DNA of 32,021 nucleotides from a virus: positions 1 through 32,021 of IMG/VR virus record IMGVR_UViG_3300009785_000052. One strand, written 5' to 3'. Below the pieces are notes generated by a model. The model searched no databases. It saw nothing but the letters and a program-made list of their open reading frames with translations, and was not told where the DNA came from. Position 1 is the stretch's first letter. Each line of letters opens with the position of its first letter. The position numbers were made by a program, and so were the translations under genes. This document shows, in pieces, positions 3,301 to 22,200 of this stretch.

Positions 3301-3304
3301 TTAA

Positions 3305-3919
3305 TTACGCCTCATTAAAACCAGTTAAACTTTGTACTCTAACTGTATAATCTATTTGTATAAGTCTATTAAGCGACTTTTGTACAGGGTGAAAAATAAC
3401 ATGAGTAAGAAGTCGTCCAGTTCCGCTTGCAGAATATGCTTTAAGACCTAATTCGTCAAATACATATAAGTTTGAGCCATCTGTTGCTGTGTCGTATGCA
3501 TCTTGGCCGCTTGGTTCACTATAGTCTAATAAACATGATACTAGCACATCAGTATAATTTGTGCCGCTTACATGCCTTGTTTCTATTTTATTTCTAACAG
3601 GGTCTAAATTATTTACACTTCTATCATCAATAACCTTTGTGTGAGTTTGATTATACAAACTGGCATTGGTGCCTGTTGAGTTCGGAGTTAAATATGTAAT
3701 AATTCCGGTTGGGTCAACACTAGTGCCACCGTTACCAAAACTCATTTCATATATCCATCCAGTTCCGCCATTACCAATGCTTTCAGCAAGGCTTAAACTC
3801 ATATTTTCATAATGAATTGCATTGCGTTTATCAATGTACGTATGATTTGATTCTGGGTCATGAATCTTAATATGTCCCTGAATTAAAACTCCGTTCATAT
3901 CATTAAAATTGTCTGTCAT
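3305..3919 (-). CDS. Unrecognised baseplate or fibre-associated structural protein, 204 residues
   Basis: I do not recognise a named family with certainty. The protein begins MTDNFNDMNGVLIQGHIKIH and holds a glycine-rich SFGNGGTSVDPTG stretch near residue 60 and a C-terminal beta segment (LLTHVIFHPVQKSLNRLIQ, IDYTVRVQ). No membrane segment or signal peptide is visible. I chose ATG at 3919 because AGGGAA lies six bases upstream and a late-promoter-like GATAAATA lies 19 bases upstream. The frame can be extended to a GTG at 3961, which would overlap the giant gene by 20 bases; that longer start also has an AAGG upstream, so it is less likely but not excluded. Its position between the giant baseplate protein and the fibres suggests a connector or wedge component. 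This is inference from position only. Confidence 0.75.
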   Translation of the reverse strand: MTDNFNDMNGVLIQGHIKIHDPESNHTYIDKRNAIHYENMSLSLAESIGNGGTGWIYEMSFGNGGTSVDPTGIITYLTPNSTGTNASLYNQTHTKVIDDRSVNNLDPVRNKIETRHVSGTNYTDVLVSCLLDYSEPSGQDAYDTATDGSNLYVFDELGLKAYSASGTGRLLTHVIFHPVQKSLNRLIQIDYTVRVQSLTGFNEA

Positions 3920-3925
3920 ATTGTT

Positions 3926-3931
3926 TTCCCT
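3926..3931 (-). promoter_or_regulatory. Ribosome-binding site deciding the 3919 start
   Basis: The minus strand reads AGGGAA followed by six bases and ATG at 3919. This spacing supports the internal ATG over the upstream GTG at 3961. Confidence 0.6.
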
Positions 3932-3938
3932 GTCATTG

Positions 3939-3946
3939 TATTTATC
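3939..3946 (-). promoter_or_regulatory. Possible late promoter GATAAATA (one mismatch to TATAAATA)
   Basis: The minus strand reads GATAAATA, one base from the T4 late -10 element. It overlaps the stop codon of the giant gene and lies 19 bases before the ATG at 3919, close to the 22 bases seen for the perfect element before gp6. It could allow separate late expression of the small protein and the fibres. A single 8-base near match in AT-rich DNA can arise by chance, so confidence is moderate. Confidence 0.4.
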
Positions 3947-6900
3947 GCGGTAAGTCAACACTTGTAGCCCTTAAGAATCTACCAATGTCTGAATCTGCTT
4001 TACTCATTGGAGTTCCTGGTACTGTCCATTGTTTTCCTTGTTTTCTTATAATAATAATGTTATTACCTTCTTTTAATTCAGTTTCTGGGTCGTTAACTGT
4101 TATAGTTAACGTATTTCCGCTAAGACTAAATTCTGCTGGTAAAGTTATATCGCCTTCTGGAGAATCCTGTGCAGTACTACTAGTTATTACGCCGGCATTA
4201 TCTTTACTTTCAAACTTATAAGAAGAAATTGCTGTTTTTCTTAGTCGCCTTCCAGCTACAAAAACTTCAAACTCGTTAACTCCTCCTGCACCTGGAACAA
4301 AATCTAACTCAAAAGCATTACTAGTGCCGTCTGCTGTAAATGTTGTGGTTAAAGTTTCATCTTTATATGGCATAGAAGCTTCAATACTTTGATCGTAAAT
4401 TTCAACTCCTGAACTATGTAAATTAGGGACTCCTGTTCCTAAAGTTCCTCTTTGTAATTGTTTTAATAAATTACCATCTTTAATTCGATATTCAATTCTT
4501 TCGCCATTAACCCATATAACTCCAGGGTACTTAGATGCTACTGCAACTTCTGTTATTCCGTTTGCGTTAGCAATCTCAATAGTTTTATCGTGTTGACGTA
4601 AGTCTTTTGCTAAAATATAATTCTTTTCGCCGTCAATTCTCTTATAATGTGTTTTATTGAGCATATCTTTAAATTGGCGCCATCCAAACTTAGTTATATT
4701 TGTAGGATTTCCAAAATGTAATACTTCAATCCTATCACCTTCGTTTAGATTATTAACAAGTTTAATATATGAGTTATCTTTAGTAACACTATAGTCAACA
4801 TCAGCAAGCAATAATGTACCATTTAATATAACCCAAACATACTTTGAATCAACTGCTGTAGTTCTTAGTTTAAATAGTCCTGCTCTTAAATTGTTTAAAA
4901 AGTAATATGCTGTAGATCCTTTAGTAAGAGGAGTATCTTCTCTTACAGTGTAAGATTCTCTTTCAAACTTTTGGGCAATACTATTACTAAACTGAAATAC
5001 TCTTATACGAGTTCCAACTGGACGAGCAACTTCAAACGAACAAATAGTTGGTTGTGGAACAAATACTTGTGATGCTTCGCCTTGGTTTTCAAAATATCCA
5101 AATCTATATTCACTTTGTTTAATTATATAAACTAGTAACTCGTCGCCGGCAACCCCGATAGTTTCAGCTAGTTGCACAGTACTTCCAATTTGTTCGTCTA
5201 ACGGAGTATCACTATCAAACGCTTCAGCACTAATAAATGACCACTGTGTTGAATATTCTAGCAAAGTGCCGTTAAGATAAACTTGTACTTCTGAATTAGT
5301 TAAAGTCCCAATTGGTATTTGCCAAAGATCTAATTTATATTCTCTTTCTGCTGAAACTGTAAATGACTGGTTGTAACCAGAATGTAATATTTTATCTCCA
5401 AGTTGTACAAGTGTATGAATACCTGCAGGACCATATGAAAATGGAGCTTGGCTTAATGTTAATCTATCATTTACACCGTCGGCTATAAAGTCATCAACTA
5501 CAACTTGACTAAACGAATCAAGATCACTACCTTCTCCAATAAATAATGCATATCTAATAACATCACCTGCTGCTAATGGAGATGCTAATACAAGTTCAAC
5601 ATTGTTTGGATGTAATCCTGTAGTTTTCATAAGTGTAGTATCTAATTTAATACCGTTACTAGTTGCAATTGCTTGTACGTTATCAGTCCACCTCATGTTT
5701 GTTTCAAAACTGTTTGAACTTCCGTCACTAATAAAGCTGTCAATGTCTAATATCTGTAATCCTGCTACTTCAACAAGGGTTATATTAATTCTTGCGCCGT
5801 CTACTGGTGCTATTTCAAAATTAACTGCCTTATTAACATAATCTATAGTATATCCCAAGGTTGAATCATTAGTAGTCGATTCAAGAATATCATTATTAAT
5901 TTTTACAAATAACGAACTTTCAGTAAATGGTGATTTACCAATATCAAATATTTTTGTTGAACCGTCACCTATGTAATTTCTATTAACAATTATACTACTG
6001 CCGCCAGTTGGTCTTTCGAATACTGAAATATCAACAGTATCTAAAACTTGTCCTGGAACAATTTCTTCTGGGCCTTTTGAAGTAGTAGGTGTTACAAAGC
6101 CGTCACCATCAATCGTAATATCCTCTGCTTTTAAACCTGTAGCAGTAGTGTAAGCAATGTTGCCGCCTTCAATTGTAGTATCATAGCTTTCTGGATCATT
6201 AATAAAGCTACCATCACTAGTAGTTTTTCTAATAATAATAATATCTGTAGAACTTACGCTCTCGTCAATGCCAAGCCCGTCGCCATCAAGGAATATAGTA
6301 GTTGTTGTTCCGTTACCTGTAATACTTTGACAGATTGCATTTGGGTTTGTTTGACTACTTGGATAATTAGGATCATCAATTCTTACACCATTTTTATAGA
6401 TGTTGTAAACTATGCCGTTTTCTAATGCCTTACTTAGTGTAATACTACTAGTAGAACCATCTAACTTAAATACTTCATCTTCATAAGTTGTATCATATGT
6501 ATCCCACGAGTCGGTATACCAAGGTAGGGCGTCCCAACCAGTAGTGCCACCAAATTCAAAACTCTTAACTTCAACTCCGCCATAATCAATTCCGTCCATT
6601 AATTGTGATAAATCTTTACCAAATTTTCCTGACTGTGTATCATAGAATAAATTAATTCTATCTGCAGCAGTTAATAATTCTACTGGTTTCTTATACGTAA
6701 TTGATATTAACTGGCCAAATTTTGGAGGAACTGTAAACGTAACCCTTCCTGAATATCTATCATACCCCTTTGTAACATCTTTAATATTTGTGTAAGTATA
6801 TTCACTTTGTAAAGCAAGTTCGCCACCAATATTAATTTCTATTGTATTAGTTCTTAGATCCATTGGAAATATAAGATCAAAAATAAATTTATTTCCAGTA

Positions 6901-9900
6901 CCAGTAAACGTTTCAACTTCAGTAAGTTTAGTTATTACAAATGAACCTGATACTCTATCAAATTTAATTGTTGAATGCATTCCTCTTACTAATCCATTAC
7001 CAATATATGCTATTAACTTAGCTTGAGTACCACCTTCGGACATAGAACCATTAATTTCTACTATTGGTGGATTCAAATATCCACTTCCTGAAGAAACTAA
7101 TTCTATTGATTCTATTTTACCGCCACGTCCTAATTTTGCAATTGCCTTTGCTCCAGAACCAGTGTCAGTTGAACTTTGATCTTGTCCTACAAAACTAATA
7201 ATTGGAGGCTGCGTATATCCGCTTCCTGCATCTGCTATTACAATTGATTTAACTTGGTACGCTATATTATCAAGCCAATTTTTATTTGGATAAGTGGTTA
7301 AGTCTGCATTTGTTCCTACAATAACATTATCTATAACTTTTACGTTCTGAGGGGTTATAGATTTAGTAATATCATTCCATCTCGGAGGAAGATCAAAATC
7401 AGTAACTAAGTTGCCAGAAACATTTAAATAATTATAATCACTTATATATTCGCGTAGTTTAGATTTAAAAGGTTTAACTTCTTTTAAATATTCTTCGTAA
7501 CTTGGCAAGTTATCATTTTGGAATGTAATTTTTTTAGATAAATCACCAACGTTATGTTTTGCTTTTATAAAACTAGTTTTAAATGCCCAATCAACTAACT
7601 TTTGTTCCGAAAATACATATTTTAAACTTGATAAGAATAAATTATTATACTCAATTGCTAATTCATCAACAAATAAATTATCTCTTAATGCTTTAAGAAT
7701 TATTCTTGATTCTTGTACAGGTTGTGAATCATATACCTTTATATCATAACTTATACTATCAAAGCCTGAACTTATTCCTGCATTATATAAAGTTGGTAAA
7801 AACTTAATTGTTCCGTTTTGTCTACCAACTGTTTTATAACTTATTGTATAATCTATTGACGAAGAATTATCAATCTTTTCTAACAACAGCCAACCGCCAG
7901 TTCCAACATTTGAAATTTTAATTATGTCACCTGTAGTATCATCTAGTGACTCTAGTTGATAAGTTGAATCAATTAAATGATCAATCTCAGTAAAGATATT
8001 ATAACCTTCATCATACCAATCTATGTAATTCCAAAACAATGAAGTATCATACGACTGACTTAATTTTCTTGTCCATTCAGTATTTTTAATATTTCTTTCA
8101 TATAAGGCCCATTTACCTTGTATAGTAGAATCACTTTTTACAAGAGCAGTAAAGCGTCTAACAAATAACGTAGTATACTGCTCTGAGTATCCACTTCCTT
8201 GATTAGTAACTGTAGCTGATATTACTGAACCTACACTGTTTAGTGTTAACGCTATAGCGGCAGGAGTTTCATTTGATCCATAAATTTGTACATTAGGAAC
8301 AACTTTATATCCTCTGCCTGGATCTGTTATTGTAACTCTAACTATTTTACCATCAACAAATACTGGAGTAAGTGTTGCCTGGGATACTTTAGCAGATCCA
8401 ACAAATGATAAATCTTGGTAAGTATCTACGGTAATATCAAAAGAACTAGACGTACTAACTGGTATTTCCTGTTTAGAAAGTAACGGAGTAATAATTTTAT
8501 CATCAATAATTAGATTCTTTAATAATACACCATTTACTCTATCAATAACTTGTTTAAAGGCTTCGTTTTTATTTACAAACCAAGATTGTCTAGGATTGTT
8601 TAAAATTCCATATCTTTCTTTAACTGATAGATTAGGATCAGGAACTGTCCGTCCAGCAGTGTCATATCCAATTAAACTATCAAACCATTTTCTTTCAATA
8701 TCATAATTAGGTTTGCTTGTATCTAATCCAGCTGTAAATAATTGGTATTGGTTATGAATATTAATATTCTGATTTTCTATTTTCCAATACTGAGTGCTAA
8801 GAGCAACATCAGTATCTTTAAGTAAACTTTCGCAATTATGTAAAACAAAACTAGTTGGAGTTATAAAGTTAACAAACTTATATCCCATTCCAGCAGGATT
8901 ATCAATATAGCGGGCTACATTAAAACTGCTTATAGTTCGATCAGCAACGTCTGGAGTTGTTATTTTACCTTTAACCCAATAAAAATATTTTAACGAGAAT
9001 GTTTGTGATATTGAATCGTATATTCTCTTAGAAGCATATACTGTATCATCATATTTTGTAAGTCCGGTTATACCTTCAACTACGCCGTCATCTGTTATTG
9101 CAATTTCATTCCATTCTGATGGAAGTAAAGTAGTTTCAATCCACTCGTATACATCTATAGAATTTCCTGTAAATTGAGTATTCCAAATACTAGAACTAAA
9201 AATTGTATTATTTTGATACGGATTTAAAAATTTACACGTTGATAAATCCCACCATAAACGACCAACTTGATCTCTGTTCCAAACATCTGAATTACTAACA
9301 GTTACTTCGTCTGTACCAATAGTATAAATTGCTGGATCATAATGTAACTTATAAGAAAGCTCTTGTTCTGCAATTCCAGCAATTTTTCCTTGTAGTGGAT
9401 CTATATAATCAAGATATGTTACTAGTTTATTTTCTTTAGTATCATATAAAAATAATTTTTTAATTTTATTAAGATCAACTGTTTTCTTAGGATTAGAATG
9501 GACTTCCCAAATATTTTTAGTATTTGGTTTTTTATAATCAACAACAGCTCCAACGTTTCCAGCTTCAACTGATTGATTAGGTAATCCTACATATACATGA
9601 TCATTGTTTGCATATAAATTTGCACCAAAGTTCTTAGGAACTTCAGTAGAACCATCAGTAATATAACTTAACGTTTGGCCATATACTAGCGTATCATCAA
9701 TATTTTCATATACATAAACTACTCCAGTATCTATGAACGTCTTTGCAAACAATGTAAAATTATTATCAAACGTAGTAGCTAAAGCATCAAACGTAGCAGG
9801 AGAAACTATATCTGCATTTTTTGATGCTATTGCTAGTATATTATTACTAAACGATAACGTATTTCCAAATAACTCTACAGATTCATTAGATCTACTATAA

Positions 9901-12900
9901 AGTGTTTGTGATAATTCAAAGAATCCAGTAGTTTTACTTTTTACTAAAATAAAAACTCTACCTTGATCATTTGTAACTTTTGTTGGATCTTCATCTGTAC
10001 GCTTTACTTCTGCTTGTGGCTCAGAAATAGCTATCATATTTCCGTCGCTGCTAATATCAATTGATCCGCCCCAATTGGTGTTGTCATTCCAAATATCATC
10101 TTCATTAACCGGTAAATCTGTTTGGGCAATAGTTTGATGCCTTTGGAAATTTCCGTTATTATTTCTATAAACAACTACTTGTGCCGGAGTAGTACTATTA
10201 TTTTCATACTGTGCTAACCCTATTAATACTTCACCGTCTTTAGATACTGCCATTTTGTTAAAATTAAACAAGCTACCTTGATCAAGAACAGTACTAGGAT
10301 CAGCACTATCAAATAATGGCAGTATTTCTTTATCATTAGGAATATATCCAATGTAATCTATCGGAGTTGTTTGTTGCGTCCATTCAGCACCATTAAATAT
10401 TCCAGGGGAAAGATTTGTATTTGCTTTAAATATACTTCCATTAATATATACAAGGTCATTAGTTTGATAACTTAGAGAATCTGCAAATTCTCCTTGGAAT
10501 TTCTTATCTTTAGATAATTCCCAATTCCATACATTTCCTTCTTCGTCAGTACCGTAATTAACAAAATACACTCTACCCGGTATAAAAGTACTGTCGTCAA
10601 GTGTTGTACCAGATTTTAGAAATTCTCGGTTAGTTTTAAAATTTTGCCCTGCACGAATAAAGAGTTTATATAAATTGTTTAACTTTGATAGTTTAACATC
10701 TGAACCAAAATAAAAGTCATCACCTTGAACACCTGGTCCAATATACGAATTAACATACGAGAATATATTAGATCCTACAGTAGTATAAATAGAAAACATT
10801 CCTTGATGGAAATGCTGTCCTGGATCAGCTAACTTCACTGCTGGAATGTTATATACGTTTATCCAGTCATTATTTGTAACTGATGGAATATTTGCAGCTA
10901 CCGGAACGCCTGCAACCGTGTCCGCTTGATAAAACCAATATTCAAAATTGTCAGAAGCACTATTCTCCCAAGTAGTTGGTGTACGACCAGTTACTGGTAT
11001 ATTTCTTCCTGCGTCAATTACAAGAAGTTTTCCTATACCTTCTGAATCTAATCCTAAAGATACACCATATATTTCTCCCATTACACGATCAACTTGATAA
11101 ATTGGACTTGGATCTAATGGGTCTCCTAAAAATCTTATTTCAGCATTATTACCAAATATAAAACCTTTAGACCAATTTCCAGTAACATTTTTAACAAATA
11201 CTACTACGTTTAATGCACTTCTTCGCATATATGTAACTTCGGCTTGTGCTCCTGTTGTTACATCTTCAACAATATCGCCTATTCTAGGTTCATAAGGTTC
11301 ACCAAATAAATTAAATTTAGTAAATTTAAATTTTATATATCCGTCCCATAACTCAGTTACAGTTAAAGTTTTAGTAAAATCTGTGTTTAATAACCCAATT
11401 GCTTCAGGATTGTTACCAGTGCCATCATATCTTAATAAAGATGGCATATAACATTTAATTGTATCTGCTGGCGACAATGTATCTGTAAGAACTTTTGGTG
11501 CTCGCATTACAAAAAGACTACTTAGAAACGGATCAGTTGAACCTCCTGCTCCTGGTAGGCCTTGATAACTTAAACTAACGATTTCACTAGCTTTAGTATT
11601 TTCACTATCTACAGTAGCAGTTTCGTAATCTCTAGAATTATAATAATACTTGTTTGATACTGAACTATCAGTAATTGCATCTTGATATACTAGTCCGTGA
11701 CCTGCATCCGAAGTAGTTACTGAAGATACTTGATAAGTTACAGGAACTGCTATCATCCAATAACCACCATAGTAACTATCAACATCAATTGTTTCTGAAG
11801 GTGCAGCAGTTGTATATTCTCCAACAAAATCTCCGCCAAATAAGAATAGACTATCAGTTTGAGCAAAAGATCCAGATATGTTGTTAAGGTAAATTCCAAG
11901 ACTTCCGTCAACTTCGAATACATATGCAACTGTGCCTGTGCCTGTTTGAGTGCTCACTGTTGAACCAACTGTTGGTTGATTAGTAAACGAATTAATCTTA
12001 AAAATTAAATCTACTTTTAATTGAATTGTATGTTCACCAGTAAAGAAACTTGAATTTAACGCTGTCATTCCGCTGCCAGCAAATGGTTCAAGTGCAGTAT
12101 ATGATGTTTGATTTTGATTAGCTATTGTTTTAGTATTCCACTTTAATTTAATACTATCATTAATATCAATACCAGCGTACATAAATTTAGGCGCTCTAAC
12201 TAATACATGGTTAGTTGTTATATTAGTAAACGGATAATTACCAGTTAGTAATATATTTATTTTTTGAGATTGTTCTGTTATATTACCAATTGTTTCACTA
12301 GTTTGAACTACACTAGTAAAACTTGAAAACTGTACATTATCAGACTCTGGAATAATTGCTGTTGTAGCTTTCCATAATTTGTTGTTATAGGAAATAATAT
12401 CGTCAGCTACATACGCAGTTGTTTCGTTATAAAATTGTTTATAATTTGTTCTTACTCTACTAGCTGAAGGAGATCCAATAATTAAAAACTTTCCATCATC
12501 TGATAACTCTATACTCTCTCCAAATTTTTGTAAATCAGGAGATGTTAAAGAATGGTATGATTCATTAAATATTTCAGTAGACGTATGAGCAACAATAACT
12601 CTATAAAAATTATTATTATATTTTACTATGTCGTTAATACTATATAGTAATCCTTCATAAAATCCTTTATAAGAGTCTGCAATACCGGTAGGAGCAAGTA
12701 TTGTTTGTGTTAATAGATAGTTGCTATTTGACGAGGATCTTTGGTATACATAAACTTTGCCATCGTCTTCGTGTGGCGAACCAACAACTAATGTAGTATT
12801 AGATGCATTAGTTGATATTGATGATGCAAAATCTAAACCAGTTAAATCTGTATCACTACTAACTTCTTGTAGCTTTGTAAATGCTTGTGTATTTTCGTAA

Positions 12901-15900
12901 ACTTTCCAACCGTTACTATCTGCTGAGTCTACCCAAAATTTAGATTTTAAATTTGCTAACTTTTGTGCAACAACGTTTAAGGTAGTTAATGTGCTTGTTC
13001 TAACCGAAACTAGTTTGCTTAATCTACCAACACAGGTTTCAATATCTTCTATTGCTTCAGAAGATATAAATGTAATTTTTTCTAAACTTATAGATTTAAC
13101 TTTAAAAAATGCACCAATATTTGCTTTAGAAGTTTGAGCACTTGCAAATGAACTATCTTCAGTACTTAATGTTGTAGAAAGTAAATCATATACGCCAAAT
13201 ATTTCGCCAGGTAAAATATTCTGTGGTGTTGAAGTTAATACTACTGTAAACTCAGTTTCTCCACCAACAACACTTTCAATATTAAAATTAGTATCGTCGT
13301 GTCTATAAATATTCCAAGTTAATTTATCATTGCCTACCCATATAAGATTTCCTCGGTTACACAAAGAAAAGTCAATATTTAATATTGCATCATAATCTTT
13401 AACAACAAAGTTTACATCTTCTTGGTTAACATATCCGCTGTCTTGAACATATCCCTGCTCAGGAGCAATATATTTTTCAGGAAACGGAGCATGAGTATAT
13501 TTTTTTGGTTTTAAATAAGTTTCGTATGGCTGGATTCTATATATTAAATCTGTTTCTTCTCCAGTTACGCTTTTTACTAATTCTATTGGTTGGGGTGAAA
13601 GTCTAAATTTTGTTTCATCTAGTTTGTATTCAACTTCGTCAAATCCATCAGAAGCGCCATATTGTCCACTTTTAATTGCCCATTCTTCATAGAATTCTAA
13701 ACTATCTTTATCAGCATTTCCTAATACATCAAACAACTTTGTTAACGCATTTTGAGTTCCTTTATCTTGGATAAATCCTTGATAGAACTTATATTGGCTA
13801 ACATCGTCATTAATAATATTTTCTAAATATTTTCTTTTCTGATAACCAATTAAGTGTTGTGCCATCCTCTGTTGTTCTGCATCAAAATTATCACTGTCTA
13901 AATCATAAAAGTCTGCAAACTGGTTAGTTTTATATTCAAAGTTTGGTGTTAGTCCCGGAGTTGGTTTTTCATCTAATCGATTCCAAAAAGATGGATTAAA
14001 CGTTTGTGTTCCAGGAACTTTTTGACTTGCAGTGTAATAAAATTCTTTTTGTTTAATAATATCACCAATAAAATAATCCTTGTTTGATTCCCAATTAGTT
14101 ATTTTAGCCTGATCGTAAACAAATCCTTCAATGTTAAGACTGCCGTCCCAGTTTGCTGTTCTGTACCCAAGGACTTTTATTCGTTCTTGTCTATACCCAG
14201 GCTCTAGGTCATATATAGTATCATTAAATACTGTTTTATTATCCAACAATACTACATGTTCTTTTTGTACTAACGGTAATTTTATTGCATATATACCATC
14301 AGCAGTGTTCTTAGGCGTTAATATAAATTCATTCGGGTCTTGTCTATTAAGCTGAACAAAATCTTCTGTTAACTTTTTGCCGTCAACTTTAACAAGTGTG
14401 TATCCGTAAAATGTATCAAAAATATTATCAACAACACTATAATCAGATTTAAATTTTAATTGCGAAGCACCCGGACTTACACTTATTAAAGTACCGCTGG
14501 CCCAATTATGTAATGTCCAATATGCAAACTCTTTTGCCGATGTTTGCCAATCGTCTACTACACTTTCTTCTTCTCTATAGTTATCAAAAACAAATCCAAC
14601 AGACTCTAAATATTTTCCGTATCCTTGTAAGAAGTCGGTTACTTCTTCAATAGTTTTTAAAATAGTACCATATGGAAGTTCTAAAGGAGCATACGTTGCA
14701 TACTCTTTTCTTAATGTTATTTCTCTGCCGCCTCTAATCGGTAATGACGGTAACCTTGCAAAATTATCTAAATTAAACACATCAGCAGTATGAGATTTTG
14801 TTACTCTATAAAACTGTCCACTGTTTTGAACTACTACTCCTGTTGAATACGTTCTTCCTGCTTCAAACTCTATATAAGGATCCGAGGCGCCGCCAATAGT
14901 AACAACAATATCTTTATCTCTAGGAAGTACTGGAAAATATTTAAATATCGGTGATGTGTTATCATAACCTTTAATTTTATAACCATTTGACTTTCTTTCA
15001 ATCATTACTCCGCTATAAGAAATTGTTTTTACCGGAGAACTTTTATTAAGGAAGATGCTATAATTTTCTTCTGGAACAAATACATTTCCTTCATTAAGAG
15101 GCGTTCTACTATCTAAAATTAATTTAAATTTATTCTTATCAGTATACCCAGCAATTTTAAATCCTATTTGATTTGTAATTGAAGTTAAGTCTAGTTTATA
15201 TTTAGAATATCCTAAAACAACGTTAGATGCCATATAACCTGCAACATAATTTATTAACCCAGAAGTATAAACTTGAGTAGAATCTAAATGGGTATTAGGA
15301 AAAATTAAACTCTTTAATTTAATTTGATTATTATCAGCTTTGTATATAATTTGTTTTGTTAAAGTTCTAACTTGATTAACTCTATCAAATCCAGTAGCTA
15401 ACACTTTAGACGGTTGATTTAATGTCCAGCTTGTAATTAAAGAAAAAGGATATTCACTACTTCGGCGCCAGGCAGTTTCAACAGGTGAATAATCACCAAA
15501 TTTAAATGAATCATTTAACTCACCCGAGTTAAAATTTTGGGCATATCCTGAATCATTTGGACTTAACAAAGTACCATTTTCGTCAACTGGAATGTGTGTT
15601 AATAATGTTGCCCTTTTATAATTATTTAAAATCTTAATCTTTTCGCCTGGGGCTCTAACAACACCGTTTTGCAAATCCGTCCATAGAATTAAATTGTCTT
15701 TTGTATATGGCGCAGGACCGTACTGTGTGTCCCACCAATTAGGTTTAATCGTAAATCCTATCATTTCCCAGGGGTGTGTATGAGGACGATCTGTGTCGTA
15801 TGCTTGTTGATACACTGCTCTCCAAAATCCCGGAAGTGTATTTCCGTTAGGCGATGACATTGTAGAATAATTAAATGTCCAAGAATTTAATCTATCATAA

Positions 15901-18900
15901 TAAGAATTTTCAGTATAGTCAGTATCAACTAACGAAGACCACTGTATAAAATCAGCCAACATAGGTGAATCTACAGCTGACTTATTAAAATCAGTAGTTC
16001 TAAATTCGCCGCCTTTGAAGCTATCTATATCAAATAACGAAGTGTCATATTTAATTTTTAAATTATTATAAATTCTCTTTTCTAACTCTAATAATAGATT
16101 ATCTCTAAAATCATTAAATGCTTTTATAATACTACCATCATGTCCTTGAATTACATTTACTGGTGTTTGGTAAGTATTATCATTATACAAACTTGGAACA
16201 AAAGAAGGATATAAGCCTAACTTTGTAGGAGTAGGTGGTACATAACTTCCGTTTGTAGTTTCGTATTCGTAAATATCAAGTAAGTCACCTTTAGTTTTAG
16301 TTTTTGTAACATTACAAAACCCTTCACTATTAAATGTATAATCTTTACCGTGAACTAACTGCATATCATTTAGATACACTTGCACAGAATTTCTACTTGG
16401 AACATCTAAACTAAACACTTTTGCTATAGCAAAATATTGCTGAGTATTATCGTCTACTATATGCGAAGTTCTTTTTACAGATCCTTGAGGAACCATATCT
16501 GAGAAAAAGAAGGGCATTGAGTTTATTTTATCTTTATTTATTTCTGCTAAGATTCTATCAACGTGCTCTTTAACCGGTCCTTCCCAACCTAAGTCATTTG
16601 CTGTTTGCAGGAATAATCTTTTAAATTTCCCATACTCTCTTCGTGCATATCTAATTGAGGATATTATATTAGAATCTTGATCTAATATACTATACATTGC
16701 TAAATTTAATGGAGAACTATGCTTAACAAATCTATTACCAAATTTTGTTATATCTCCTAAATCTCTTAAATTTCCTACACCTGGAAACTTTCCTGAAAAA
16801 TTAGATAAGTTTTCAACTATACTGGTTACGTGATTGTTTACTTCTCCTAATGTAAATTCATTAACATTATCGTTTAATGGATTTCTCTCTAAATTACTTG
16901 GAAAATCATAGTATCCGTTATCATTTTTACTAGCAACAGAAGTTGTTTTAATTATAATGTTGTCACCATCTGTTAATCCAGTTAATGAAGTAAATGCTGG
17001 TTTTAAAAATGTAACTGTAGTTAAATTATTAGGAGATATTCCTAATGTGTAATCAACATCTTTAAATTTTAATACGTTATTTAAAAACACCGTTACGTTT
17101 AAATCTGCAAGAGCAGCACTATTTTCATAAACATCAATATCAAATATATTAGTAGTATTATCAAACACGTAATTTCTTATTACAGGCTGTGTACTATCAG
17201 TTGGTGCTTTAATCCAACCATTTGTATTTGTATATGTAGATATACTTGAATACGTTCTAAGAAATCCTACATCTGTATTTTTGTAGTATAATTCTTCAAT
17301 ATTACGATATTCAAAATAGTCATTTAACAAATTAAAATTAAATGTAATATCGCCTACGTTTGTTATTGTTCTGTATGAAAGAGGAATTCCAACTTCAGTA
17401 TCTACTGAGCCTGTTCCTTCTTTATAACTAAAAAGTTTATTACCTTTAAAAGTTGTTGAATCATAAATTGTAGCATCGCTATAACTATTGTTATTTTCGT
17501 CAAATAATTCAAACAACGGAGGTTGGTTTACTTTAGTTTTTGTTTGTGCTACTTTCCAAGATGTTCCGTTGTAATAATACATTAATCCTTTGTATGTATT
17601 ACCGTCTGTAATTAACACTACTTCGTTAGTTACTGGTATTGAGTCAGTAACGTCAATTAATGAAATCTGTTTAATAGTTTGATCAACTTCAATTCCGGGG
17701 CCATCAAAATTAAAGAACTTAACTTGAAATATTCTTCCGTTAACTAGCTTATCAGGATCTGCTGTAAATAAAATACGCATTCCGTCAATTAAATCTATGC
17801 CATCAATATTGTAACCTGTGCTACCTTCAATAGTAGAAAATACATCTTTTGTATAGGTATCTAATAAATTAACATTTTGTTTAATACTAGTACCAAAGTT
17901 AAATAGCTTTATGCCCTTTTCAAATTCAATTATTGGACGTTTAGCTCTTGCAGATTCGTCTACATTAATAGGTTGCTCGTTTAATATAGCACTTTGTTCA
18001 ATAACAGATTTATGAAACCACCTATTGTACCTACTCCATAAATTTCCGTCAATTGCACTACGATTAATTAACATATAATCTCGTACAGTAGGATATCCAA
18101 TTGCAGTATCAAATGGCTGTCTGTCAAATCCTGCAATATCAAATTGTACGTCTACGTCTTTAACAAATGCACTAGGAACTGTTAGTAAATTTTGATTAAC
18201 AAGAACAATTTTATCGCCAACTCCTTCAACATAATATTCTCCTGTAGCATATTTTGCTGGCGTTACGTCTCCAATAAAGCTAATTTTCATTCCATTAGTT
18301 AAACTAAATCCTTCACCTGTAGTATATGTCTTCTTTCCTAATATTTCAGCATCAATGTCAATTGCTGACGACTCTTCTATATTAGCAACCTTTATTAAAC
18401 CTGCTGCTTCTATATCATTATCAGCAACATAATATAATGTATCTGGAGTAGTAGCAGTTGGAGTAAATGTTATTGTACCTTTTTCTGTACCCTGATTATC
18501 AATTAGCGAATCATCAATTAAAAACGAGTTATCTAAATCACGCTTTGTTCTAAGTGTAAAGGGTAAACCCGGAGTGTCAATATCAAACTTGTATGTAACG
18601 CCTCTAAATAATTTAATTGTTGGATTCTGCGTTAATCCATCTGGCGAAAATACATACCCAAAATTATCATCATTGTCAGCAGCTGACACTGTATAGGTGC
18701 TAATTACTTCTGTAGATTGTCCTCGTACATTAACAACTTGTGGACCATTAGGTAACCAATAGTATTCTCTAAAATTAACAAACTTGTCCCAGTCAATGTG
18801 CGGGTTCCAAGCATAATATTCTTGTTTATTAGTAATACTGTGATCAGAAACCTTTGAGTTAAAGCCTGTTAACTGATTCATGTAATCATTATAGTCTTTA

Positions 18901-19199
18901 TAAAATGTTACATTTCCTAACTCATCTTTAATAATAGTTGCTGGTTCAAACTGATAATTTTTTCTACTAGTTGAAATATCACCAACATAATTGTCATCTT
19001 TAGTAAAAGACGCTGCTGTTTCTCTACCAAAATAACCATTAAGTTTTTCAGCAACTCCGGGCTGTATTAATTGGTCTAGTGTACTAGCTAAGAACTTACT
19101 GTTAGGTACTGTTCTAAAATACCTAGGTAAATGCCTTTCGCTTTTTCTTTTTGCGTTAGGATCGCTAGTGCCGCTAGACTGATTATTGTCGAATGCCAT
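3942..19199 (-). CDS. Giant virion structural protein, 5,085 residues, in the gp7-gp11 region of the baseplate cluster
   Basis: A single uninterrupted frame of 15,258 bases. ATG at 19199 is preceded by AAGGAA eight bases upstream and follows the gp6 stop by 19 bases. Segments seen, in order: an N-terminal region with RHLPRYFRTVPNSKFLA (about 23-39); a cupredoxin-like domain (195-275); a segment around GHDGSIIKAFNDFRD (about 1017) with LLLELEKRIYNN; THPWEMIGFTIKPNWWD (about 1140); five carbohydrate-binding-like modules between 1445 and 2944; six FG-GAP-like blades at 2125-2245 and 2975-3215; four GSGY-type repeats at 3628, 3668, 3992 and 4038; and a series of beta modules from about 4080 to the end, closing with KADSDIGRFL. 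No catalytic motif, signal peptide or membrane segment is visible. T4 gp7 is about 1,030 residues, so this is roughly five times longer. Very long structural proteins next to gp6 are, from memory, known in marine T4-like phages, but their roles are poorly defined. I infer a baseplate wedge or peripheral adhesive scaffold that may replace several T4 wedge proteins. Confidence 0.9.
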   Translation of the reverse strand: MAFDNNQSSGTSDPNAKRKSERHLPRYFRTVPNSKFLASTLDQLIQPGVAEKLNGYFGRETAASFTKDDNYVGDISTSRKNYQFEPATIIKDELGNVTFYKDYNDYMNQLTGFNSKVSDHSITNKQEYYAWNPHIDWDKFVNFREYYWLPNGPQVVNVRGQSTEVISTYTVSAADNDDNFGYVFSPDGLTQNPTIKLFRGVTYKFDIDTPGLPFTLRTKRDLDNSFLIDDSLIDNQGTEKGTITFTPTATTPDTLYYVADNDIEAAGLIKVANIEESSAIDIDAEILGKKTYTTGEGFSLTNGMKISFIGDVTPAKYATGEYYVEGVGDKIVLVNQNLLTVPSAFVKDVDVQFDIAGFDRQPFDTAIGYPTVRDYMLINRSAIDGNLWSRYNRWFHKSVIEQSAILNEQPINVDESARAKRPIIEFEKGIKLFNFGTSIKQNVNLLDTYTKDVFSTIEGSTGYNIDGIDLIDGMRILFTADPDKLVNGRIFQVKFFNFDGPGIEVDQTIKQISLIDVTDSIPVTNEVVLITDGNTYKGLMYYYNGTSWKVAQTKTKVNQPPLFELFDENNNSYSDATIYDSTTFKGNKLFSYKEGTGSVDTEVGIPLSYRTITNVGDITFNFNLLNDYFEYRNIEELYYKNTDVGFLRTYSSISTYTNTNGWIKAPTDSTQPVIRNYVFDNTTNIFDIDVYENSAALADLNVTVFLNNVLKFKDVDYTLGISPNNLTTVTFLKPAFTSLTGLTDGDNIIIKTTSVASKNDNGYYDFPSNLERNPLNDNVNEFTLGEVNNHVTSIVENLSNFSGKFPGVGNLRDLGDITKFGNRFVKHSSPLNLAMYSILDQDSNIISSIRYARREYGKFKRLFLQTANDLGWEGPVKEHVDRILAEINKDKINSMPFFFSDMVPQGSVKRTSHIVDDNTQQYFAIAKVFSLDVPSRNSVQVYLNDMQLVHGKDYTFNSEGFCNVTKTKTKGDLLDIYEYETTNGSYVPPTPTKLGLYPSFVPSLYNDNTYQTPVNVIQGHDGSIIKAFNDFRDNLLLELEKRIYNNLKIKYDTSLFDIDSFKGGEFRTTDFNKSAVDSPMLADFIQWSSLVDTDYTENSYYDRLNSWTFNYSTMSSPNGNTLPGFWRAVYQQAYDTDRPHTHPWEMIGFTIKPNWWDTQYGPAPYTKDNLILWTDLQNGVVRAPGEKIKILNNYKRATLLTHIPVDENGTLLSPNDSGYAQNFNSGELNDSFKFGDYSPVETAWRRSSEYPFSLITSWTLNQPSKVLATGFDRVNQVRTLTKQIIYKADNNQIKLKSLIFPNTHLDSTQVYTSGLINYVAGYMASNVVLGYSKYKLDLTSITNQIGFKIAGYTDKNKFKLILDSRTPLNEGNVFVPEENYSIFLNKSSPVKTISYSGVMIERKSNGYKIKGYDNTSPIFKYFPVLPRDKDIVVTIGGASDPYIEFEAGRTYSTGVVVQNSGQFYRVTKSHTADVFNLDNFARLPSLPIRGGREITLRKEYATYAPLELPYGTILKTIEEVTDFLQGYGKYLESVGFVFDNYREEESVVDDWQTSAKEFAYWTLHNWASGTLISVSPGASQLKFKSDYSVVDNIFDTFYGYTLVKVDGKKLTEDFVQLNRQDPNEFILTPKNTADGIYAIKLPLVQKEHVVLLDNKTVFNDTIYDLEPGYRQERIKVLGYRTANWDGSLNIEGFVYDQAKITNWESNKDYFIGDIIKQKEFYYTASQKVPGTQTFNPSFWNRLDEKPTPGLTPNFEYKTNQFADFYDLDSDNFDAEQQRMAQHLIGYQKRKYLENIINDDVSQYKFYQGFIQDKGTQNALTKLFDVLGNADKDSLEFYEEWAIKSGQYGASDGFDEVEYKLDETKFRLSPQPIELVKSVTGEETDLIYRIQPYETYLKPKKYTHAPFPEKYIAPEQGYVQDSGYVNQEDVNFVVKDYDAILNIDFSLCNRGNLIWVGNDKLTWNIYRHDDTNFNIESVVGGETEFTVVLTSTPQNILPGEIFGVYDLLSTTLSTEDSSFASAQTSKANIGAFFKVKSISLEKITFISSEAIEDIETCVGRLSKLVSVRTSTLTTLNVVAQKLANLKSKFWVDSADSNGWKVYENTQAFTKLQEVSSDTDLTGLDFASSISTNASNTTLVVGSPHEDDGKVYVYQRSSSNSNYLLTQTILAPTGIADSYKGFYEGLLYSINDIVKYNNNFYRVIVAHTSTEIFNESYHSLTSPDLQKFGESIELSDDGKFLIIGSPSASRVRTNYKQFYNETTAYVADDIISYNNKLWKATTAIIPESDNVQFSSFTSVVQTSETIGNITEQSQKINILLTGNYPFTNITTNHVLVRAPKFMYAGIDINDSIKLKWNTKTIANQNQTSYTALEPFAGSGMTALNSSFFTGEHTIQLKVDLIFKINSFTNQPTVGSTVSTQTGTGTVAYVFEVDGSLGIYLNNISGSFAQTDSLFLFGGDFVGEYTTAAPSETIDVDSYYGGYWMIAVPVTYQVSSVTTSDAGHGLVYQDAITDSSVSNKYYYNSRDYETATVDSENTKASEIVSLSYQGLPGAGGSTDPFLSSLFVMRAPKVLTDTLSPADTIKCYMPSLLRYDGTGNNPEAIGLLNTDFTKTLTVTELWDGYIKFKFTKFNLFGEPYEPRIGDIVEDVTTGAQAEVTYMRRSALNVVVFVKNVTGNWSKGFIFGNNAEIRFLGDPLDPSPIYQVDRVMGEIYGVSLGLDSEGIGKLLVIDAGRNIPVTGRTPTTWENSASDNFEYWFYQADTVAGVPVAANIPSVTNNDWINVYNIPAVKLADPGQHFHQGMFSIYTTVGSNIFSYVNSYIGPGVQGDDFYFGSDVKLSKLNNLYKLFIRAGQNFKTNREFLKSGTTLDDSTFIPGRVYFVNYGTDEEGNVWNWELSKDKKFQGEFADSLSYQTNDLVYINGSIFKANTNLSPGIFNGAEWTQQTTPIDYIGYIPNDKEILPLFDSADPSTVLDQGSLFNFNKMAVSKDGEVLIGLAQYENNSTTPAQVVVYRNNNGNFQRHQTIAQTDLPVNEDDIWNDNTNWGGSIDISSDGNMIAISEPQAEVKRTDEDPTKVTNDQGRVFILVKSKTTGFFELSQTLYSRSNESVELFGNTLSFSNNILAIASKNADIVSPATFDALATTFDNNFTLFAKTFIDTGVVYVYENIDDTLVYGQTLSYITDGSTEVPKNFGANLYANNDHVYVGLPNQSVEAGNVGAVVDYKKPNTKNIWEVHSNPKKTVDLNKIKKLFLYDTKENKLVTYLDYIDPLQGKIAGIAEQELSYKLHYDPAIYTIGTDEVTVSNSDVWNRDQVGRLWWDLSTCKFLNPYQNNTIFSSSIWNTQFTGNSIDVYEWIETTLLPSEWNEIAITDDGVVEGITGLTKYDDTVYASKRIYDSISQTFSLKYFYWVKGKITTPDVADRTISSFNVARYIDNPAGMGYKFVNFITPTSFVLHNCESLLKDTDVALSTQYWKIENQNINIHNQYQLFTAGLDTSKPNYDIERKWFDSLIGYDTAGRTVPDPNLSVKERYGILNNPRQSWFVNKNEAFKQVIDRVNGVLLKNLIIDDKIITPLLSKQEIPVSTSSSFDITVDTYQDLSFVGSAKVSQATLTPVFVDGKIVRVTITDPGRGYKVVPNVQIYGSNETPAAIALTLNSVGSVISATVTNQGSGYSEQYTTLFVRRFTALVKSDSTIQGKWALYERNIKNTEWTRKLSQSYDTSLFWNYIDWYDEGYNIFTEIDHLIDSTYQLESLDDTTGDIIKISNVGTGGWLLLEKIDNSSSIDYTISYKTVGRQNGTIKFLPTLYNAGISSGFDSISYDIKVYDSQPVQESRIILKALRDNLFVDELAIEYNNLFLSSLKYVFSEQKLVDWAFKTSFIKAKHNVGDLSKKITFQNDNLPSYEEYLKEVKPFKSKLREYISDYNYLNVSGNLVTDFDLPPRWNDITKSITPQNVKVIDNVIVGTNADLTTYPNKNWLDNIAYQVKSIVIADAGSGYTQPPIISFVGQDQSSTDTGSGAKAIAKLGRGGKIESIELVSSGSGYLNPPIVEINGSMSEGGTQAKLIAYIGNGLVRGMHSTIKFDRVSGSFVITKLTEVETFTGTGNKFIFDLIFPMDLRTNTIEINIGGELALQSEYTYTNIKDVTKGYDRYSGRVTFTVPPKFGQLISITYKKPVELLTAADRINLFYDTQSGKFGKDLSQLMDGIDYGGVEVKSFEFGGTTGWDALPWYTDSWDTYDTTYEDEVFKLDGSTSSITLSKALENGIVYNIYKNGVRIDDPNYPSSQTNPNAICQSITGNGTTTTIFLDGDGLGIDESVSSTDIIIIRKTTSDGSFINDPESYDTTIEGGNIAYTTATGLKAEDITIDGDGFVTPTTSKGPEEIVPGQVLDTVDISVFERPTGGSSIIVNRNYIGDGSTKIFDIGKSPFTESSLFVKINNDILESTTNDSTLGYTIDYVNKAVNFEIAPVDGARINITLVEVAGLQILDIDSFISDGSSNSFETNMRWTDNVQAIATSNGIKLDTTLMKTTGLHPNNVELVLASPLAAGDVIRYALFIGEGSDLDSFSQVVVDDFIADGVNDRLTLSQAPFSYGPAGIHTLVQLGDKILHSGYNQSFTVSAEREYKLDLWQIPIGTLTNSEVQVYLNGTLLEYSTQWSFISAEAFDSDTPLDEQIGSTVQLAETIGVAGDELLVYIIKQSEYRFGYFENQGEASQVFVPQPTICSFEVARPVGTRIRVFQFSNSIAQKFERESYTVREDTPLTKGSTAYYFLNNLRAGLFKLRTTAVDSKYVWVILNGTLLLADVDYSVTKDNSYIKLVNNLNEGDRIEVLHFGNPTNITKFGWRQFKDMLNKTHYKRIDGEKNYILAKDLRQHDKTIEIANANGITEVAVASKYPGVIWVNGERIEYRIKDGNLLKQLQRGTLGTGVPNLHSSGVEIYDQSIEASMPYKDETLTTTFTADGTSNAFELDFVPGAGGVNEFEVFVAGRRLRKTAISSYKFESKDNAGVITSSTAQDSPEGDITLPAEFSLSGNTLTITVNDPETELKEGNNIIIIRKQGKQWTVPGTPMSKADSDIGRFLRATSVDLPR
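7020..7247 (-). repeat. GSGY repeat pair 2 in the giant protein (residues about 3985-4060)
   Basis: Two copies of a short beta repeat: GSGYTQPPIISFVG beginning at residue 3992 and GSGYLNPPIVEING at residue 4038. They are separated by a GSGAKAIAKLGRGGKI type spacer. The same unit occurs in many phage structural proteins, where it probably forms small beta sandwiches or rolls. Confidence 0.8.
8160..8417 (-). repeat. GSGY repeat pair 1 in the giant protein (residues about 3595-3680)
   Basis: GRGYKVVPNVQIYG begins at residue 3628 and GSGYSEQY at residue 3668, again with a short alanine-rich spacer. The spacing of about 40 residues is close to that of the second pair (46), so the two pairs look like copies of one two-unit block. 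Confidence 0.75.
9557..10277 (-). repeat. FG-GAP-like blades 3-6 in the giant protein (residues about 2975-3215)
   Basis: Four similar units. Their cores read MAVSKDGEVLIGLAQ, IDISSDGNMIAISEPQAE, LSFSNNILAIASKNAD and NLYANNDHVYVGLPNQ. The first three are followed by a G-x-V-x-V-Y type strand (for example QVVVYR, GRVFILV, GVVYVYE). This is the pattern of FG-GAP/integrin-alpha-like propeller blades. Confidence 0.65.
10370..14868 (-). repeat. Five dispersed carbohydrate-binding-like (CBM5/12-type) modules in the giant protein
   Basis: Five copies of a roughly 40-residue unit with the pattern Y-x(3)-D/V-x-(I/V)-x(4)-x-(F/L)-Y/F-x-A/V, often closing with W or F: residues about 1445-1484 (YSTGVVVQNSGQFYRV), 1702-1743 (YFIGDIIKQKEFYYTA ... 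PSFW), 2178-2221 (YSINDIVKYNNNFYRV), 2254-2297 (YVADDIISYNNKLWKA) and 2904-2944 (YQTNDLVYINGSIFKA ... EW). This resembles chitinase-type CBM5/12 domains. Binding activity is inferred, not shown. Confidence 0.55.
12450..12842 (-). repeat. FG-GAP-like blades 1-2 in the giant protein (residues about 2120-2250)
   Basis: Blade 1 has LDFASSISTN then TTLVVGSPHEDDGKVYVYQ near residue 2135; blade 2 has FGESIELSDDGKFLIIGSP near 2235. A carbohydrate-binding-like module lies between them. They match the F-G-x-S ... (L/V)-x-(V/I)-G-x-P pattern of FG-GAP repeats. Confidence 0.65.
18375..18617 (-). other. Cupredoxin-like domain without copper ligands in the giant protein (residues about 195-275)
   Basis: FRGVTYKFDIDTPGLPFTLRT is followed by GTITFTPTATTPDTLYYVAD and AGLIKV, the order of strands seen in cupredoxin-like domains of phage structural proteins. 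In those, the last hairpin usually reads like YYxCxxHxxM. Here it reads YYVADNDIEAAG, with no Cys, His or Met, so metal binding is not expected. Confidence 0.5.
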
Positions 19200-19218: not shown

Positions 19219-22200
19219 TTATACACTTTTTATTCCAGAAGATACTGTTGTTGTTGCTGTAGAAATAGTTCCACTAGCTCGTAATCTACTTGCTGTAATA
19301 GCGTCTATAACGTCGACATTATTAACAGTTGCTCCGCTTATAAAAATTTGATCGCTTTCTGCTTTAATTTCAAATAAGCTGCCAAATGTTTGACTTGTTT
19401 GTGTAGGGACAATTAAAAATGTTACTAGGTCCGGTGTAAGTTCAGACATTACGTAGTTTGCCATTTCTGAAAAGAAAAACTTATCGCCAAAGTCCCAATT
19501 TTCTAGTGCAAAATATTCATTAATTGCTGCAATAATTCTTGACTTAATGTCGTTATCGTTTAACACAAGATCTGGATTCTTAACCACTTTGAATGATGCT
19601 TGCAAATCTGCTGTTGCCTTATTACCAAATAATACTTTGTACGTAACTGGATGATAAATTATCTCATCACTTAATGACTTAATCTTAGATAATTCTGTAT
19701 TATAAGAAAGAGCTAATGCATCTGAACTTGCTGGTAATGGTTCTTTTGCACTTCCGTTTAAAAACGCTCTAAAATCTGTATCATAACTTCTAGTTAAAAT
19801 ATAAGTATCAATTAAATTACTTGAACTAGGATCAAGTCTTGAACTATCATCTGCACCATGAACATAATAGAAAGATATAGCTTCTCTACCAATTCTTGCT
19901 CTGTAATCAGTAGTTTGTACTAATAATCCTAATGTACTATTATAGTTTTTAAACACGTTAGTTGTAGTAAAATAAAATAACTGCCCATTTGTATATGTAC
20001 TAAGTGGAGATAATAATGCTTCTGAACTTAATATTATTGGATATAATGTTTCAATCTTAATAAAATTATAATCTTCAACACCGTCTGTAGTAGTAACCTT
20101 TTCTTGGAATATATATTTTGTTAATGGATTAATTGTTTCATTTACTACAGTGTCAAAAACGTCCGGATCGTCGACTACTCCGTCATCATCAGTATCAAAA
20201 AACGATACTTCTATCTTTTTACTATCTACATATCCTTCAGCATCTCTATATTCTTCTGTTAATTCCCAATCATAATCAATAGTAAACGGAAGAGCACTAT
20301 CGGGTTGAGTGTTTATATTTAAGATACTAATCCTATCCTTAACTATTTTACCAGTTAGGTTATTATAGATTTTGTCGCTAGAGTTAAAATAGAATCGTAT
20401 TTCTTGATCGCTTTCAAAAATATACCTCATTGCTCTATTTTTAATTGTATACGTTTCGCCGTCGGTTTCAAACAATAACATCCAGCTTGAATCTAATTGT
20501 TGGTTTGAAACATCACCAGTTTTACCTGTACTAAAATCATTAGAAGTATTTAAATTATTTTCTGTAATAATTCTCCAAGACTGTGTATCTGTACTATACC
20601 GAAGTCCAAATGTTTTATAAGCAAAGACTTGGTCAATTAATTGTGTTGCAACGTCAGTTGCTAAAGTTGCAGACAACCCCGGTCGAATTTCTGATAAACG
20701 AGAACCACTAGGAATAACATCATTTAATGATACTGGTCCTAGTCCAGTAGTAGCAACTATAGATCCATCTCCAGTAACTGATGCTATTTTAACCCATTTA
20801 TAATTTACTACACCTTTTTTACCTTCATAACCAGTTATAGAAACTAAGTCAGTATTAAGGAAACTTTTTCCTACTGGAGGTAAAAACTTAACCATTGTTC
20901 CAGGAACTATTAGTTTTAATAACGATGAAGTATACGATCCTAATTGAGATTTTATATCAGCTGAATTTTTAAAATATCCTGTACTTAAATTTGTAGCGTT
21001 TGTTAGTTGTGTCCAAGTTACTCCAAGATCTATTGAGGATATTTTAGGAAAATAATTATAATAATAATTTCTAATTTTTTTGTTAACTAATATAGGCTCT
21101 ATAGTATTAACAATTGCGCCTTCAATATCTGTTTTAGTAGAAAAAGTAAACGTTGTTTTAGGTATTAGTGTTTCTTTATATAATACTCCGTCAGTGCCGT
21201 ACAAACTAGTTTTACTATATTTTCCAGTAGCGTCTATTAAATCAAAATACCTACTAATACCGCTTGATGTTCTATTAATAGATTTTACTTTAATGATCTC
21301 TTGGCTTATTCCCAATGGAGCAATTTGATAATCTTCAGCAGTAACCATTCTATTCTGTGTATAGTATGTTGATGGAGCATTTTGCTTAATACTTGCACTA
21401 GTTTCACTTGAAGTTGAGTTATCAACAGTATACTTTAATTCATAAGAAATTGTTAATGTTTCAATTTTATTATTAACTGATAGGTAAGGAACTGTAACAG
21501 TTATTCCTCGCATATCGTCTGGTGTAACAATAACTCTTTCATTTTTACTTACTCTATAAAATACACGGAAACTACCTTTTGGTAATTTTCCAAATACTCC
21601 GTCGGAAAATATTAAACTAATTCTATCATCTACACGAGTTAACACACTGTAAATATTTTGTATATTTTTATCTAAACTATTATATACTACATTATTACCT
21701 TCAACTGCATCAACCTTAGACCATAATTCAACTTCGTTTCCAAAACTATCTAATTTGTATAACCATACATCTGTATTATTAACATTAGTAGCATCAATAG
21801 CAACAACTTGGTTAGTGCTAGGAGTGTCTATTGTGAAAGTGCCTTCGTCTATCGACCCTTCTCTAAAATGACTAAAGAATCCAGTATTTGAACTTGCATT
21901 TCCTCTGCCGTCATCTCGGTATAAAAATGCAAAGTTGTTTCCAGGGAACGGTGCTTCTTCTTGTATAACAGTATCAACAACATCTGTTGATACAATCTCA
22001 AATCTTACACTCCTACCGTCAACTGCTTTAGAAAAGCTATAAACTGGAACTTCGTCATTGGTACTAAGCATGCGATATTGTTGTGTTGGAATACCACTAG
22101 AAACATCTTTCTTAATAGGTCTTCCAAACTTTGCATTGGCTGGTAACGTTACATTCATAACTTTTATAAATTGCTCGTACCAATCTAAATTAGTAGGATC

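Follow-up and report, generated by a model that had tools for sequence, protein, structure and literature searches.

The window analysed here, a 32,021-nucleotide stretch of viral DNA, possesses a baseplate cluster whose gp53-, hub-, gp25- and gp6-like genes resemble those of phage T4, with a single giant gene directly downstream of gp6. Its genes are as follows:

1276..3300, minus strand: tail-collar-domain fibre protein
3305..3961, minus strand: conserved partner gene, phrog_11259, 218 aa (shorter with a later ATG)
3942..19199, minus strand: giant open reading frame, 5,085 aa, PHROG 10938 (virion structural protein), from the ORF list and profile match
19219..22635, minus strand: gp6-like baseplate wedge protein, 1,138 aa (phrog_10646, E 4e-293; phrog_219, baseplate wedge, E 3e-28)
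22693..23142, minus strand: gp25-like baseplate wedge protein
23161..23454, minus strand: PAAR spike-tip protein
23454..25064, minus strand: gp5-like hub/spike protein
27516..27818, minus strand: gp53-like baseplate wedge protein

A preliminary description of this DNA had placed the giant directly after gp6, and the gp6-like gene at 19219–22635 and its neighbours agree with that assignment. The phrog_11259 gene on the other side is likewise found after the giant in PA5oct, SCTP-2, Vibrio 2.275.O and Phosso, and in Atu_ph07 it comes one or two small genes later. Its product has no match to T4 gp8–gp12 and is a candidate obligate partner or chaperone; no gp8 homologue lies downstream of the window's giant. 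The two fibre-like proteins encoded at 1–1272 and 1276–3300 share the N-terminal families phrog_15511 and phrog_14394 and, judging by these families, appear to be paralogues that have the same anchor but differ at their tips.

Reading frame, family and presence in virions

In the ORF listing of the window the giant gene forms a single open frame of 5,085 codons, starting with an ATG preceded by a ribosome-binding-like AAGGA site. The frame has identical length in three sister IMG/VR records, which differ by 10 nucleotides and 4 amino acids and represent three metagenome assemblies from samples of unproven independence. The C-terminal 300 residues fall within a single open frame in 37 of 40 relatives searched, and in the marine family records checked the frames that do not run off a contig span 4,458–5,488 aa with zero internal stops. 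The preliminary description had read the length of the frame as a sign of strong selection. This is evident in comparison with four relatives: dN/dS is 0.14–0.24 overall and 0.05–0.36 in every block of 500 residues, with the minimum in residues 1500–2000 and the maxima in residues 2000–3000 and the last 85 residues, so purifying selection on the coding sequence spans the entire length of the giant. Because of the sister-record frames, the intact relatives and these dN/dS values, the frame is a genuine gene, neither a chance frame nor an assembly error. A chimeric or mis-assembled frame, conceivable for any metagenomic contig, is already refuted by its recurrence in the sister records, its unbroken state in dozens of relatives and cultured phages, and the purifying selection throughout.

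The protein matches the PHROG 10938 profile with E 4.7e-266 (residues 1–2600) and E 4e-69 (residues 2401–5085). A tblastn search with its first 1,000 residues matched 84 phage records, belonging to jumbo T4-like phages of Escherichia, Pseudomonas, Klebsiella, Salmonella, Erwinia, Agrobacterium and others, and at least 594 IMG/VR stretches encode relatives of residues 1000–1900. With more than 590 such loci, members reaching 5,488 aa and a 5,195-aa protein in P-SSM2, the giant is neither isolated nor a record in size; it adds a marine member to a family of giants already known but poorly described, whose core and insert anatomy is worked out here. The members in cultured phages include:

121Q gp582: 3,323 aa, adjoins gp6
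CBB_236 of CBB: 3,340 aa, adjoins gp6
PA5oct gp355: 3,857 aa, adjoins gp6
Vibrio 2.275.O homologue: 3,771 aa, adjoins gp6
Atu_ph07 gp180: 4,449 aa, adjoins gp6
Phosso homologue: 4,555 aa, adjoins gp6
SCTP-2 gp140: 3,807 aa, about 95 kb from gp6

The giant thus comes directly after gp6 in six cultured jumbo phages (Atu_ph07, PA5oct, 121Q, Vibrio 2.275.O, Phosso and CBB). In Salicola phage SCTP-2 the cluster is rearranged, and a 3,096-aa open reading frame precedes the giant. These jumbo-phage proteins share with the window's giant a collinear core (approximately residues 1–1900 and 3200–4500) and, SCTP-2 excepted, the place after gp6; the window's protein differs in being longer (5,085 aa). Annotation within the family can mislead: the homologue in EJP2 is misannotated as a D-alanyl-D-alanine carboxypeptidase, and in K64-1 three separate hypothetical proteins are annotated under the giant match.

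A sister record of 135,781 bases contains a capsid gene of the T4 Gp23 type. Gp23 is also present beside a relative on a contig of 335 kb, which suggests a jumbo genome. This contig, encoding both the giant and a T4-type Gp23, is binned in a Neomarinimicrobiota MAG (L305/L306; PBPT01000016.1, PBPT01000082.1) in which the ribosomal S8 match lies on a different contig, and it is probably a mis-binned jumbo phage. In the Gp23 genes of the marine group (G007, G008, G035 and G042) the match is split between profile positions of approximately 1–63 and 116–354 within one frame of about 400 aa, as if part of the protein had been lost or were very divergent.

Homologues of the giant have been detected in phage particles. 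In CBB virions, CBB_236 was identified by mass spectrometry with 21 unique peptides and 7.72% coverage (PMC5259590, Table 4), and by gene position this protein is the giant following gp6. The record note of PA5oct marks gp355 with ESI-MS/MS. The mass-spectrometry clusters of Atu_ph07 include CDS 170–215, gp180 not being named in the text (PMC6102473). The window's giant is almost certainly a virion structural protein and very probably resides in the baseplate; the designation as a baseplate-cluster virion protein is upheld by the baseplate gene neighbours and by the homologues in CBB and PA5oct virions.

Core, insert and modules

An alignment of 32 giants reveals two collinear core parts (residues 1–1900 and approximately 3200–4500) and one main insertion site between them, the tail being less conserved. 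Within the window the parts and modules of the giant are:

13503..19199, minus strand: conserved N-terminal core, residues 1–1899, collinear in all cultured jumbo-phage homologues
19065..19142, minus strand: lone N-terminal helix (HLPRYFRT...FLASTLDQL), residues 20–45, of low model confidence
18375..18707, minus strand: cupredoxin-like beta domain, residues 165–275, with no C-x-H-x-M copper motif
14778..14867, minus strand: CBM5/12 (chitin-binding type 3)-like module, residues 1445–1474, absent in 121Q, CBB and Vibrio homologues
13950..14093, minus strand: second CBM5/12-like module, residues 1703–1750, in marine members only
13680..13817, minus strand: helical KGT block FYQGFIQDKGTQNALTKLF, residues 1795–1840
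9660..13502, minus strand: variable insert, residues 1900–3180, with dN/dS above that of the core
12420..12953, minus strand: first propeller blades (FG-GAP), residues 2083–2260, with a CBM5/12 in a loop at 2186–2207
10320..12419, minus strand: module of about 700 aa nested in the propeller, residues 2261–2960
9480..10319, minus strand: remaining propeller blades, residues 2961–3240 (blade pattern by eye; FG-GAP_2 in relatives L121 and L128)
5700..9479, minus strand: C-terminal core, residues 3241–4500, collinear in all homologues
8166..8450, minus strand: GSGY beta module, residues 3584–3678 (phrog_460, E 8e-14)
6969..7253, minus strand: GSGY beta module, residues 3983–4077, also in P-HM2 gp7 (hhalign 93%)

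The segment up to residue 1899 measures 1,572–2,039 aa across all giants aligned, and the segment past residue 3300 measures 1,194–2,064 aa. The insert region, measured over residues 1900–3300, comprises 1,401 aa here and 243–1,577 aa in the family, the extremes being CBB (243 aa), 121Q (245 aa) and Atu_ph07 (1,577 aa). Among marine members mean identity is 55% in the N-terminal core, 51% in the C-terminal core and 36% in the insert. Judged from this alignment, the giant owes its size mainly to a single insertion site within a conserved core. Swapping of inserts among close relatives was looked for and none was found; the insert diverges faster but gradually.

The beta-propeller named in the preliminary description is confirmed at the level of domain profiles: FG-GAP_2 falls just below the cut-off in the window's giant (22.6 bits against 23) and exceeds it in relatives L121 (E 1e-10), L126, L128 (E 4.7e-15) and L137, so the FG-GAP repeats of the insert are predicted to form this fold. 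L128 and L140 lack the nested module of about 700 aa, and L137 and the Rak2-like and Vibrio homologues have it only in much reduced form. The propeller that is split in the window's giant runs uninterrupted in L128 and L140 and nearly so in L137; the Rak2-like and Vibrio homologues have no propeller. The homologues in 121Q, CBB and Vibrio lack the FG-GAP propeller, the nested module and the CBM5/12 modules alike. The carbohydrate-binding-like module proposed earlier can be specified as CBM5/12 (Pfam PF02839; E 1.5e-12, 47.8 bits against a cut-off of 26.2), present near residues 1445, 1703 and 2186, and the two GSGY modules also recur as described, at residues 3584–3678 and 3983–4077.

An AlphaFold2 model of residues 1–1000, built from an 82-member alignment, is a chain of beta domains with a mean pLDDT of 80.9. 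Foldseek aligns it locally to domains of nitrite reductase and laccase (multicopper oxidase) with probabilities of 0.99–1.00, confirming for residues 165–275 a predicted Greek-key cupredoxin fold. Of the cupredoxin-like module described earlier the fold therefore stands and the copper-ligand motif is missing: the Type 1 ligand loop C-x-H-x-M is absent from all 32 giants. Residues 189–271 of this domain are common to the giant and cyanophage P-HM2 gp7. The latter keeps a copper-site motif C-x-N-H-x-x-M (CQNHLAM, residue 1759) that the jumbo-phage giants have lost.

The model of residues 1485–2680 is beta-rich (pLDDT 77.1). Its Foldseek matches in the PDB are weak; among them are CBM5/12-bearing chitin deacetylases, the propellers of integrin heads and baseplate chains of T4 type. 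The last group contains 5iv5_BJ, from the T4 baseplate, and 9f4a_A0, a 1,031-aa chain of a T4-like baseplate matched with probability 0.97, 23% identity over 100 columns and E 0.045; gp7 in entry 9f4a has 1,032 aa. These baseplate matches may come from a small beta module that profile-aligns to gp7 762–837, and we do not count them as proof. Apart from weak matches to CBM5/12 and propeller domains, searches of the giant against all PDB sequences with phmmer and profile hmmsearch gave no significant hit.

In the KGT block (1813–1815) K-G is invariant and T nearly invariant across the family. Its helices are modelled with low confidence (pLDDT 30–50), which would be expected of partner-dependent folding but by itself is not evidence of it. 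The lone helix at residues 20–45 is a candidate stem for a gp6/gp7 helical bundle.

Comparison with gp7 and alternative readings

In T4 gp7 comes right after gp6, in the same gene order as the window's giant. T4 gp7 is a 119 kDa monomer of three domains, present in six copies; it touches gp6, gp8, gp9 and gp10 and swings outward at baseplate opening (PMC3004832). The T4 protein (1,032 aa) resembles the giant in gene position and perhaps in a weak KGI-like block, and differs in having one fifth of its length, another domain order and no significant sequence or fold match to its core.

A closer parallel in size is found in cyanophages. The gene after gp6 encodes 4,454 aa in P-HM2 (L143:19836-33200), where it is annotated as gp7, and 5,195 aa in P-SSM2 (L144:21930-37517). 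A profile of 20 cyanophage-type giants matches T4 gp7 727–813 (hhalign 95.9%, E 5e-9) with a score reached by none of 60 column-permuted controls. Because this match stands so far above the controls, the cyanophage post-gp6 giants are, on profile evidence, gp7 relatives. According to a published survey, cyano- and pelagimyophages lack T4 gp7 and have VrlC in its stead (PMC7029224); the cyanophage giants match the T4 gp7 KGI block despite that account. Cyanophage gp7 (PHROG 2885, "baseplate wedge subunit") shares with the jumbo giants the position after gp6, a similar size, the cupredoxin and GSGY modules and perhaps a similar KGI/KGT helical block, whereas the remaining core is not recognisably homologous and the downstream gene is gp8 in cyanophages and phrog_11259 in the window.

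Between the jumbo KGT block and the cyanophage KGI block the score is 27.8 against a maximum of 20.9 in 150 permuted controls, with an hhalign probability of only 14% and a selection bias, the segment having been picked for its motif. Against T4 gp7 the KGT block does no better than chance (21 of 60 permuted controls reach its score). The preliminary description had called for profile comparison of pieces of the giant with gp7; neither the whole protein nor any of 12 segments gave a significant hhalign match to T4 gp7 (best E 0.07). The gp7 domains of Pfam, Gp7_helical (PF21428), Gp7_5th and Gp7_6th, are absent from the giant, and neither PF21428 nor PF23786 matches anywhere in the window. Searches with the latter two profiles yielded a single sub-threshold match (L054 record), which we attribute to chance, PF21428 also being found in 6 of 14 control genomes.

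As a positive control, an alignment of jumbo gp6 finds cyanophage gp6 (97%) and, weakly at the right place, T4 gp6 (9%). Since homology of gp6 is barely detected at the distance of T4, the failed match to T4 gp7 is not strong evidence against a gp7 identity. The suggestion that the locus corresponds to T4 genes 7–11 does not extend to the content of the giant, which has no hhalign similarity to T4 gp8, gp9, gp10 or gp11; a fusion of T4 genes 7–11 was dropped, the giant finding no match among gp5, gp6, gp8–gp14, gp53 and wac.

We favour the reading of the giant as a gp7-equivalent baseplate wedge protein, enlarged about five-fold, at a probability of roughly 0.6. The link of the jumbo-phage proteins to gp7 is one of gene position and the weak KGT block. 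Counted against it are the missing core match to T4 gp7, the missing gp7 Pfam domains, no gp8 downstream, the SCTP-2 giant about 95 kb from gp6 and the low pLDDT of the KGT helices (30–50). Part of this evidence would also suit a baseplate-peripheral platform unrelated to gp7, an independent giant arm carrying fibres and binding the host, with something else as the wedge partner of gp6. The core without a significant T4 gp7 match, the absent gp7 domains, the separation from gp6 in SCTP-2 and the generic nature of the modules common to cyanophage gp7 all speak for such a platform; the adjacency to gp6 in most cultured relatives, a cluster that holds no other gp7 candidate and the KGT block kept through the whole family make it a rather unlikely one.

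A component of CBB-type tail whiskers or hairs, or of long branched fibres outside the baseplate body, would account for a beta-rich modular giant with close homologues in phages bearing whiskers (CBB) or branched fibres (RaK2). However, GAP32, for which whiskers are not reported, shares structural genes according to the CBB authors and has a CBB_236 homologue, GAP32_230 (PMC5259590). With the gene, in addition, lying in the wedge cluster and not in a fibre cluster, we regard this assignment as improbable. Tape measures and ejected polymerases are typically very large, and size is the one property that would point to a tape measure, an internal ejected protein or a non-virion protein, no tool result supporting any of them; the modelled parts (residues 1–1000 and 1485–2680) are chains of beta-rich domains and not long helices, homologues are detected in virions beside baseplate proteins and the gene adjoins gp6, leaving these possibilities highly improbable.

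We accordingly file the giant under PHROG 10938. A gp7 identity is not proven, but the protein occupies the place of gp7 and probably functions as gp7 does. The view that it is not a plain wedge protein holds for its plug-in modules, which lie mostly in the one variable insert, and fails for the conserved core, most likely the wedge part in the gp7 position.

Proposed arrangement and its meaning

For a gp7-equivalent giant we propose that the conserved core, comprising the N-terminal stem, the KGT block and the C-terminal half, would pack on the gp6 dimer of each wedge and, by analogy with T4, extend outward as a fibre-carrying platform or wedge arm. TssG and P2 gpI are wedge partners of TssF and gpJ (PMC6300606), and the giant, although no match to them was found, would be their functional analogue if the N-terminal stem and the KGT block bind gp6. 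The single insertion site in mid-protein would hold a peripheral domain: an FG-GAP beta-propeller, interrupted by the module of about 700 residues and decorated with CBM5/12 domains. This domain would be exposed and would probably attach to a glycan on a surface, to another fibre or to the envelope of the host. With copy number again taken from T4, about six copies of roughly 560 kDa each would be present per baseplate.

Contact with the host surface or with fibres would fit the insert's faster evolution and the carbohydrate-binding and propeller modules that it carries. Going by domain type, the insert could bind a surface ligand, a role we consider possible at somewhat under even odds. More tentatively, and with some doubt, we speculate that in marine T4-like jumbo phages and cyanophages nested propeller and carbohydrate-binding insertions took gp7 from some 1,000 residues to some 5,000, so that a wedge subunit carries a receptor-reading domain.

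PHROG 10938 giants are abundant in the sea and also occur in jumbo phages infecting Escherichia, Klebsiella, Salmonella, Pseudomonas and Erwinia, yet existing annotations go no further than "hypothetical" or "virion structural protein". The single main insertion site in their conserved core makes their anatomy testable: the core should be wedge and the insert should vary with the host. The gp7 assignment, if true, would explain the whereabouts of gp7 in marine T4-like phages, described as lacking it (PMC7029224). If the more tentative reading of nested insertions also holds, receptor reading would fall to a wedge subunit, a job that T4 assigns to separate proteins (gp8–gp12), and baseplates with about 3 MDa of gp7 would represent a distinct architecture.
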